NCBI GenBank assembly: GCA_902766045.1
Contig: CACXCA010000003.1
Location: forward strand, 1 to 64,000
Direction: 5' to 3'
DNA: 64,000 nucleotides
From: an uncultured Bacteroidales bacterium
GTDB lineage: Bacteria; Bacteroidota; Bacteroidia; Bacteroidales; Paludibacteraceae
Every line of letters starts with the position of its first letter. Positions within the stretch are counted from its first letter, which is position 1. The notes beneath the pieces were generated by a model. It was not told the DNA's origin. It did not search any database and was given only the letters and a program-made list of their open reading frames with translations. This document shows, one piece after another, positions 25,427 through 28,841 of the stretch. The position numbers and the translations under genes are program-made.

Positions 25427-28400
25427 TTAATACTCTTGCCAACTCTTGATTTGAATCTCCTTTATGTCCTTTTCGCAGAACGCTTTAATGAATGCACTTG
25501 CTAATCTTGCGTTCGTCATCAAAGGAATATTGTGATCAATAGCTGAACGACGTATCTTATATCCGTTTGTTAACTCTCTTCTTGTATGATTCTTTGGTAT
25601 ATTGATAACCAAATCAACCATGTGCTCTTGCAACAAGGAAATGATATTGACATTATGATTGTTCTCATCTGGCCAGCTAACGGCTGTAGCCTCAACACCA
25701 TGCTCTACCAAGAAGTTCCTTGTTCCTTCTGTCGCATAAATCTTATATCCATGAGAACTCAACAACTTACAAGAATCCAACAAATCAACTTTTCCTCGTA
25801 TATCTCCTGAAGATACTAAGATTCCTTTTTGTGGTACGTAATAACCTACTGATACCAATGAATTGATCAACGCCTCATCAAAGTCTGCTCCTAAGCATCC
25901 CACCTCACCTGTAGATGACATATCAACACCTAAAATTGGATCTGCCTTATGCAAACGTGCAAATGAGAATTGTGATGCCTTCACACCAACATATTCAATA
26001 TCAAATGTTGAAGAGTCTGGTTTTTCTACTGGAACATCCAACATGATCTTCGTAGCCGTCTCAATGAAGTTTCTCTTCAATATCTTTGATACGAATGGGA
26101 AACTACGAGATGAACGCAAGTTACACTCGATCACCTTCACAGCATTATCCTTCGCCAAATATTGAATATTAAATGGACCACTGATATTCAACTCTTTTGC
26201 GATCTTCTTACTTACCTTCTTTATCTGACGGACAGTCTCCAAGTACAATTTTTGTGCAGGAAATACCAATGTTGCGTCACCTGAGTGCACTCCGGCGAAC
26301 TCAACATGTTCTGAGATGGCATATTCAATGATCTCACCATTCTTAGCCACTGCATCAAATTCCACCTCTTTTGCATTTTGCAAGAATGAAGAAACAACTA
26401 CCGGATATTCTTTTGAAACCTTAGCAGCCATCTTCAAGAAGGTATCCATCTGCTCACGGTTATAACATACATTCATGGCAGCGCCTGAAAGAACGTATGA
26501 AGGACGAATCAATACAGGGAATCCTACTTCATTGATGAAATTATCAATATCCTCAGAGCTGGTCAACTCACCCCAACGTGGTTGGTCAATACCCAACTGA
26601 TCCAACATAGCAGAGAACTTATGACGGTTTTCTGCACGGTCGATTGATACTGGTGAGGTACCTAAGACAGGAACATTCTGACGATATAACTTCATTGCCA
26701 AGTTATTCGGAATCTGACCACCCACGGATACAATCACACCCTTAGGATTTTCTAAGTCGATCACATCCAAGACACGCTCAAAACTCAACTCATCGAAATA
26801 AAGTCTGTCGCACATATCATAGTCTGTTGACACAGTCTCTGGGTTGTAGTTGATCATGATAGACTTATAACCCAATTTACGAGCAGTCTGTACGGCATTG
26901 ACTGAACACCAGTCAAACTCTACAGATGAACCGATTCTGTATGCACCAGAACCTAAGACTACAATGTTCTTATCATTTCTATATGAATAATCAATGCTAT
27001 GTTCGTCTGCACCGTATGTCATATACAAATAGTTGGTCAACTCAGGATGTTCAGAAGCAACCGTATTGATACGACGTACGACAGGAGTGATGCCTTGTTT
27101 CTTTCTGAGAGCTCTTACACGAAGAATCTCCTTCTCCATATTGTTCTGAGGGTTTTCAGAATAACGTGCTATCTGGAAGTCAGAGAATCCTAAACGTTTA
27201 GCCTCCTTCATCACATCGGCAGGGATATCTTCAATCTTATTGTATTTACCCAATACCTTTGTATAATCAACAATATTTTTCAACTTGCCAATGAACCATT
27301 TATCAATCTTGGTCAAGTCAACGATCTTTTCTATGCTATAGCCCTTCTCCAAAGCAGCTGCAATAGCGAAAATACGCAAATCAGTTGGATGAGACAATTC
27401 CTTATCCAAGTCTTCAAATTCCAAGTCACGGTTACCTACGAATCCATGCATACCTTGACCAATCATACGAAGACCCTTTTGGATGATTTCCTCGAATGAC
27501 TTACCAATAGACATGATCTCACCCACAGACTTCATAGATGAGTTGATTTCACGATCGACTCCAACGAACTTCGTCAAATCCCAGCGAGGGATCTTGACAA
27601 TGATATAGTCAACAGAAGGAGCAACATAAGCTGAATTAGGAGTACCCATCTCACCTATCTGATCCAACGAATAACCTAATGCTAATTTAGCAGCTACAAA
27701 GGCCAATGGATAACCAGAAGCTTTCGAAGCCAATGCAGAAGAACGGCTCAAACGAGCATTGATCTCAATGATACGATAATCATTGGTTTCAGCATTAAAT
27801 GCAAACTGAATGTTACACTCTCCTACAATACCAATATGACGAACAACTCTCTTAGAAATATCTTGAAGCAAAGTGATTTGTTCTTGTGTCAATGAGATAA
27901 TCGGTGCCACAACAATACTTTCACCTGTATGGATTCCCAGCGGATCAAAATTTTCCATTGGAACAACCGTGAAGCAATGATCGTTTTTATCACGAATCAC
28001 CTCAAATTCTATCTCTTTCCATCCTTTCAACGACTCCTCTACCAAGATTTGTTTTGAATGTGTCAATGCACTTTCACACAACTCCTTGAATTCTTGCTCG
28101 TTCGTACAGATACCAGAACCAAGACCGCCTAATGCATATGCAGAACGAACCATCACAGGGAATCCGATACGATGAGCAACCGCCAACGCATCATCCATAT
28201 TTTCTACAGCCTGAGATACTGGAGTCTTTGCTTGGATCTCACTCAACTTCTTAACAAATAAGTCACGATCCTCAGTAATCATAATTGCATCGACCGAAGT
28301 ACCCAACACCTGAACACCATATTTCTCTAAAACACCAGAAACATACAATTCAGTACCACAGTTCAAGGCTGTTTGTCCACCAAAAGCCAATAAGATTCCG

Positions 28401-28648
28401 TCTGGTTGTTCTTTCTTTATCACCTCTTCCACAAAATAAGGAGTGATCGGCAAGAAATAAACCTTATCTGCAACTCCATCCGAAGTTTGAATGGTTGCGA
28501 TATTAGGATTAATCAATACTGTGGAAATACCTTCCTCGCGCATTGCCTTCAGAGCCTGAGAACCAGAGTAGTCAAACTCTCCGGCTTGTCCAATCTTCAA
28601 GGCTCCAGAACCAAGCAAAATTACCTTTTTAACTTTCTGTGACTTCAT
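25427..28648 (-). CDS. carB: Carbamoyl-phosphate synthase large subunit
   Basis: CarB makes carbamoyl phosphate for pyrimidines and arginine from ammonia, bicarbonate and two ATP. At 1073 residues it is full length. It has two ATP-grasp halves, each opening with a glycine-rich loop (LGSGALKIGQAGEFDYSG and LGSGAYRIGSSVEFDWC), and a C-terminal MGS-like allosteric domain (about 930-1073) that in relatives senses UMP or ornithine. The small subunit gene carA, often adjacent, is not next to it here. The 5' leader carries a candidate attenuator. Confidence 0.97.
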   Translation of the reverse strand: MKSQKVKKVILLGSGALKIGQAGEFDYSGSQALKAMREEGISTVLINPNIATIQTSDGVADKVYFLPITPYFVEEVIKKEQPDGILLAFGGQTALNCGTELYVSGVLEKYGVQVLGTSVDAIMITEDRDLFVKKLSEIQAKTPVSQAVENMDDALAVAHRIGFPVMVRSAYALGGLGSGICTNEQEFKELCESALTHSKQILVEESLKGWKEIEFEVIRDKNDHCFTVVPMENFDPLGIHTGESIVVAPIISLTQEQITLLQDISKRVVRHIGIVGECNIQFAFNAETNDYRIIEINARLSRSSALASKASGYPLAFVAAKLALGYSLDQIGEMGTPNSAYVAPSVDYIIVKIPRWDLTKFVGVDREINSSMKSVGEIMSIGKSFEEIIQKGLRMIGQGMHGFVGNRDLEFEDLDKELSHPTDLRIFAIAAALEKGYSIEKIVDLTKIDKWFIGKLKNIVDYTKVLGKYNKIEDIPADVMKEAKRLGFSDFQIARYSENPQNNMEKEILRVRALRKKQGITPVVRRINTVASEHPELTNYLYMTYGADEHSIDYSYRNDKNIVVLGSGAYRIGSSVEFDWCSVNAVQTARKLGYKSIMINYNPETVSTDYDMCDRLYFDELSFERVLDVIDLENPKGVIVSVGGQIPNNLAMKLYRQNVPVLGTSPVSIDRAENRHKFSAMLDQLGIDQPRWGELTSSEDIDNFINEVGFPVLIRPSYVLSGAAMNVCYNREQMDTFLKMAAKVSKEYPVVVSSFLQNAKEVEFDAVAKNGEIIEYAISEHVEFAGVHSGDATLVFPAQKLYLETVRQIKKVSKKIAKELNISGPFNIQYLAKDNAVKVIECNLRSSRSFPFVSKILKRNFIETATKIMLDVPVEKPDSSTFDIEYVGVKASQFSFARLHKADPILGVDMSSTGEVGCLGADFDEALINSLVSVGYYVPQKGILVSSGDIRGKVDLLDSCKLLSSHGYKIYATEGTRNFLVEHGVEATAVSWPDENNHNVNIISLLQEHMVDLVINIPKNHTRRELTNGYKIRRSAIDHNIPLMTNARLASAFIKAFCEKDIKEIQIKSWQEY

Positions 28649-28660
28649 ATATATAATCGC

Positions 28661-28783
28661 TTAAATATTACTTTTAAAACATAAAAAAAGCGGGGAAAAA
28701 CCACCGCCAACACTAAATAATAAAAAATTGAAAAAACTTGTCTCTCCCTCCACATTCTTGAATATGTTTTGATATACAGACAT
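28661..28783 (-). CDS. Candidate 40-residue leader peptide of carB
   Basis: A short open frame from ATG 28783 to TAA 28661, lying wholly inside the carB leader and ending 12 nt before the carB start. Its product would begin MSVYQNIFKNVEGETS and is rich in phenylalanine (8 of 40) and leucine. The frame runs through a U-rich stretch (28736-28715, 17 of 22 bases T) and then through the hairpin and T tract at 28707-28683. I see no strong ribosome binding site, and I know of no matching protein family. The case rests on its placement, as in the pyrL leader of pyrBI. Confidence 0.5.
   Translation of the reverse strand: MSVYQNIFKNVEGETSFFNFLLFSVGGGFSPLFLCFKSNI
28683..28707 (-). terminator. Terminator-like hairpin inside the carB leader (attenuator candidate)
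   Basis: On the minus strand GCGGTGG and TCCCCGC form a seven-base stem with one mismatch and one wobble around a TTTT loop. Seven T residues follow. It lies 35 nt before the carB ATG, downstream of the promoter box and inside the leader ORF. Confidence 0.65.
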
Positions 28784-28833
28784 GATTCTAACTCAATTCT
28801 TTATTTCTTAATTCACATTTTGTTAATTGGGTG

Positions 28834-28841
28834 CAAAGTTA
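28834..28841 (-). promoter_or_regulatory. carB: -7 box of carB
   Basis: TAACTTTG on the minus strand, with a TTTG at 28864-28867 in a plausible -33 position. Transcription would begin near 28827, giving a leader of about 180 nt, long for this genome. Confidence 0.55.

Follow-up and report, generated by a model that had tools for sequence, protein, structure and literature searches.

In a gut bacterium of the Bacteroidales and in many of its relatives, the gene for carbamoyl-phosphate synthase (carB) is preceded by a small upstream frame, a U-rich stretch and an intrinsic terminator arranged like the UTP-sensing switch of Escherichia coli pyrBI. This suggests that the same type of control arose separately in a distant bacterial phylum. 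The element is conserved, and the best explanation for it is translation-coupled transcription attenuation of carB. We consider this mode of control very likely and UTP as its signal likely, the latter being inferred by analogy with pyrBI.

Results

Anatomy of the carB leader

The features of the leader are collected in Table 1. They lie within the window, by which we mean the whole 64,000-nucleotide stretch of DNA analyzed. The observation made in an earlier note, which described a promoter box, a 40-codon frame passing through a U-rich tract and a terminator hairpin, and a stop 12 nt before carB, proved correct base by base. Only 27 of the 127,958 22-mers of the window (both strands) contain 17 or more T, as the U-rich tract does. 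The terminator hairpin folds at -9.9 kcal/mol (z -2.8), a value equaled by 1 of 200 shuffles. In contrast, the fold of the whole 188-nt leader is not exceptional (z -1.4) and revealed no aptamer. A generic sigma-70 scan missed the promoter because the boxes of Bacteroidota differ, and was uninformative for this phylum. A weak candidate pause hairpin upstream of the U tract is no better than shuffles in this copy (z +1.3). Across the 60 leaders described below, such a hairpin is only modestly favored (mean z -0.98, with 9 of 60 below -2), though the Bacteroides copies show an A:U to G:C change with pairing kept.

Table 1. Predicted elements of the carB leader and neighboring frames in the window
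Feature	Position (strand)	Description
Promoter -7 box	28834..28841 (-)	TAACTTTG, Bacteroidota type (TAnnTTTG)
Expected transcription start	about 28829-28826 (-)	CACCCAATT at the predicted start
Leader ORF	28661..28783 (-)	40 codons, ATG 28783, TAA 28661, ending 12 nt before the carB ATG; reads MSVYQNIFKNVEGETSFFNFLLFSVGGGFSPLFLCFKSNI followed by stop
Weak candidate pause hairpin	28751..28768 (-)	CATATT-CAAG-AATGTG, upstream of the U tract
U-rich tract	28715..28736 (-)	17 T of 22, inside the leader ORF
Second frame	28645-28755 (-)	36 codons; overlaps the leader ORF, runs through the hairpin and ends in an ATGA overlap with the carB start, which could couple translation to carB
Terminator hairpin	28690..28707 (-)	GCGGTGG-TTTTT-CCCCGC
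Terminator T-run	28683..28689 (-)	7 T; predicted 3' end of the attenuated leader RNA
carB	25427..28648 (-)	Large subunit, 1073 aa; NCBIfam TIGR01369, 1419.7 bits; no promoter box of its own; ATG at 28648

Conservation of the promoter and terminator

To determine whether this arrangement could have arisen by chance, we compared carB upstream regions from 69 loci of the family (the window's among them) and 80 named loci. These 149 loci, in which some genomes are present twice, were reduced to 102 by removing leaders more than 85% alike. Sixty of the 102 have an intrinsic terminator of -8 kcal/mol or better within 130 nt of carB. In 39 of these 60, a TAnnTTTG box lies 55-190 nt upstream of the hairpin (4.7 expected from shuffles), whereas only 4 boxes lie between hairpin and carB (4.2 expected), none of them in the window. 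The median distance from hairpin to ATG is 44 nt. On this evidence carB would depend on transcription through the terminator. Stem pairs 4-9 of the terminator differ between genera (T-A, T-G, G-C, C-G, A-T) with the pairing kept. Since a MAFFT alignment misplaced the arms, stems were compared pair by pair, a procedure biased towards pairing because the hairpins had been picked for folding.

The element spans many uncultured Bacteroidales (Paludibacteraceae-like), Bacteroides and Tannerellaceae. Muribaculaceae and some Phocaeicola and Bacteroides loci lack it. In a sample of 20 more distant genomes of the Bacteroidota most carB genes follow carA directly, and none has the element. Two Phocaeicola loci (L161 and L164; L denotes loci in our numbering) have a strong terminator before carB without a U tract (4 T in 30), perhaps a remnant or another control. 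In some genera (loci L069, L073, L079, L081 and L083) a tRNA gene and its terminator lie directly before carB where others have the leader frame, and the same type of TGCGTT..AACGCATTTTTTTT hairpin may serve both.

The leader frame and the U-rich tract

In 38 of the 60 leaders an ATG frame of at least 18 codons begins after the promoter and stops between -12 and +25 nt of the hairpin start, against 9.3 +/- 2.8 (maximum 18) in 500 shuffles that keep dinucleotides. The stops sit mostly at -9 to +10, so that in most relatives the stop codon lies at the foot of the hairpin. The window's own copy is atypical in this respect. It keeps the MSV start of its nearest relatives (MSVHQYIV.., MSVPHYIY..), but its 3' part is out of their register, so it runs through the hairpin and stops before carB, like pyrL in E. 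coli. The peptides differ between genera (for example MSVPHYIYKNWDDVKALFFYSY, MTMDYGHKQLAVADNTSACRFTFPF, MYSKLCKPASDEATVIRGIGKPVYLSSKQLIFFYKSEK), although Bacteroides species share an ending ..IFSSLVMR or close to it. Frames diverge but stay open. Within groups, substitutions favor third codon positions (122 of 236 in the largest family group and 286 of 651 in Bacteroides, the pairs not being independent), and pN/pS is about 0.5 in the three largest groups. This points to weak purifying selection, but the values come from protein-guided alignments and are only indicative.

In the 30 nt before the hairpin T makes up 0.454, compared with 0.294 before 84 gene-end terminators of the same contigs (P = 3.6e-10) and 0.297 further upstream in the same leaders. 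T is enriched at all three codon positions of the last 12 codons (0.43/0.48/0.54, against 0.24/0.27/0.32 earlier in the frame), and pyrimidine-ending codons end in T in 80% there, against 56% in carB (P = 1e-15). This is what selection on uridine content, rather than on a particular amino acid, would give. Phe is nonetheless common: it is present in the last 14 codons of 44 of 46 leaders, at least twice in 38 and in tandem in only 10. The 52 Phe codons, against 39 expected from per-position composition, are a small excess that leaves some room for a peptide or Phe effect. Arg codons are not concentrated, occurring at least twice in only 4 of 46 leaders and never in tandem.

Genomic context and other pyrimidine genes

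The nearest named relatives of the genome are Paludibacteraceae or unclassified Bacteroidales metagenome-assembled genomes from animal guts (95% identity to RGIG7865). A plasmid search gave nothing. The genome has two full carB genes: the one studied here (carB1) and one 64% identical, fused to carA in a gene of about 1,450 aa that lies directly behind the CTP synthase gene pyrG (loci L002 / L171; G000:C58:96518-100843, given as genome, contig and positions in our numbering). Both CarB paralogues are closer to human CPS1 than to E. coli CarB in score. The possibility that carB1 is the arginine enzyme was considered because of CPS1-like residues in its C-terminal domain; however, both paralogues carry the same W and P residues, and CPS1 is the best solved relative of both. 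The idea that this genome lacks arginine synthesis, prompted by the absence of any OTCase-like hit but pyrB, was dropped because argininosuccinate synthase is present. In the genus, all but one of 16 genomes have the window's carB. Two 99%-complete genomes (G002 and G008), which keep the element, and a third (G011) have carB1 but no detectable carA and no second carB. In G002 and G008 carB1 would have to be the only carbamoyl-phosphate synthase. Such a stand-alone CarB may use ammonia or an unknown glutaminase.

Other pyrimidine genes do not share the design. In the genus, pyrE and pyrD have no terminator just before the gene. The pyrB gene of the whole genus has its own, strongly conserved leader terminator (ACCAATGCGA..TTGGC..TCGCATTGGTTTTTTTT) about 20 nt before the gene, with only a mini-ORF and no U tract (loci L184-L198, for example L188 at about 1429-1481; G000:C15 near 150879). 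This is a second, different candidate attenuator of the same pathway. No protein exceeded the cut-off of the PyrR profile NF003549 in any of the 16 genus genomes, while six control genomes did. No Rfam family matched the window's leader above gathering score, and among eight loci examined only a tRNA did so.

Discussion

In the model that we favor, RNA polymerase starts at about 28828 and makes a leader RNA in which a ribosome begins the 40-codon frame. When UTP is plentiful, polymerase would cross the U-rich tract quickly, leaving the ribosome behind; the GC hairpin would form and most transcripts would end at about 28683, so that little carB mRNA is made. When UTP is scarce, polymerase would slow in the tract, allowing the ribosome to close up behind it and cover the 5' arm of the hairpin; the terminator could not form and carB would be transcribed. 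Our analysis establishes the anatomy of the element, its recurrence across Bacteroidales, the placement of the stop codon, the nucleotide-level selection for U and the enrichment of promoter boxes upstream of the terminator only. Termination in vivo, translation of the frame and the role of the ribosome, and the response of readthrough to UTP are inferred from sequence and by analogy.

The earlier note had proposed that carB is controlled by UTP through translation-coupled attenuation, and our results support this interpretation in part. Two of the three conditions that it had set for rejecting its reading could be examined, and neither was fulfilled: a short frame and hairpin are conserved in close and distant relatives, and promoter boxes are not enriched downstream of the hairpin. 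This strongly supports translation-coupled attenuation. The UTP component, on the other hand, rests on the U tract, on the pathway of the gene and on the parallel to pyrL. The picture differs from that of the note in the usual position of the stop codon, and the pause hairpin seen in E. coli pyrL is weak in the window's copy. Furthermore, the existence of a second carB beside pyrG means that carB1 might serve arginine as well as, or rather than, pyrimidines. Tight coupling of ribosome and polymerase has not, to our knowledge, been shown in Bacteroidota.

These properties inspire comparison with the E. coli pyrBI attenuator. There, too, a promoter is followed by a leader frame (pyrL, 44 codons), a U-rich tract inside the frame, a GC hairpin with T8 and the structural gene right behind, pyrL stopping 3 nt before pyrB. 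In E. coli the ribosome suppresses termination when it is close behind polymerase (PMC5021804), and the distance between a stop codon and a terminator decides whether it does so, with a very steep dependence at pyrBI (PMC4824070, citing Roland 1988). However, the leader peptides show no sequence similarity (BLASTP E = 3.8 over 3 residues), the gene is carB rather than pyrB, the promoter and ribosome-binding signals are those of another phylum, the frame ends at the hairpin foot in most relatives, and the pause hairpin, strong in E. coli, is weak in the window. By sequence the element is not a relative of pyrL; by design it would work like it. The same enzyme is under pyrimidine control in E. 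coli carAB (ArgR, PurR, PepA, RutR and UTP-dependent reiterative transcription), but this control acts at initiation, and attenuation is not used at the arginine-controlled P2 promoter or at other arginine genes (PMC6245113). PyrR-dependent attenuators, as in the Bacillus pyr operon, also place a terminator in the leader of a pyrimidine gene, but are not known to have a long leader frame. Long 5'UTRs with sORFs occur in Bacteroides thetaiotaomicron (Ryan et al.), where the main text, the only part examined, gives BT_4401 as an example and no carB or pyrimidine case. Full-text searches, which left out most subscription papers and all supplements, found no such attenuator described in Bacteroidota.

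Among alternative explanations, translation-coupled attenuation responding to another signal, such as general translation or ribosome speed or a charged tRNA (phenylalanine or arginine), is unlikely but survives best. A stalled or slow ribosome would let the terminator form or would block it. The abundance of Phe codons, the weak peptide-level constraint and the conserved ending in Bacteroides favor this view; the scarcity of Arg, the few tandem Phe codons, the extension of the T excess to synonymous positions and the lack of any link between Phe and carbamoyl phosphate speak against it. A run of Arg codons, as expected of a classical attenuator responding to the end-product amino acid, is not found. 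Protein- or ligand-dependent antitermination (PyrR, a riboswitch or another RNA-binding protein), with the ORF being incidental, appears improbable. A terminator does lie between promoter and gene, as in the leaders of PyrR-controlled pyr genes, but PyrR is not detected in the genus, no Rfam match, conserved antiterminator or aptamer was seen, and the placement of the frame is conserved. It is similarly improbable that the frame is a stand-alone small protein or sRNA gene whose terminator happens to precede a carB with a separate promoter. The mild purifying selection and the tRNA genes found in this place in some genera are compatible with this idea; however, there is no excess of promoter boxes between hairpin and carB, the stop codon is locked to the hairpin, the U tract is absent before ordinary gene-end terminators and the peptides are not conserved between genera. 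Finally, UTP control through nucleotide effects at initiation or slippage with a constitutive terminator, although known for E. coli carAB, upp and codBA (PMC6245113), is very unlikely, as there is no homopolymer T at the predicted start and it does not explain the U tract or the stop-codon placement.

The pyrBI switch is a textbook regulator without a regulatory protein, known to us only from enteric bacteria. It is tempting to speculate, and in our view about as likely as not, that the Bacteroidales element is an independently evolved UTP-sensing, translation-coupled attenuator, conserved through much of the order and guarding a carB gene that in some of these genomes is the only carbamoyl-phosphate synthase and has no CarA partner. 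If so, it would show that ribosome and polymerase run tightly coupled in a phylum where this has not been established. The element occurs in Bacteroides species close to genetically tractable strains and is thus open to direct testing. A second, unrelated origin in gut Bacteroidota would show how readily such control evolves, give a first candidate pyrimidine control mechanism in these bacteria, and provide a natural reporter for whether transcription and translation are coupled there.
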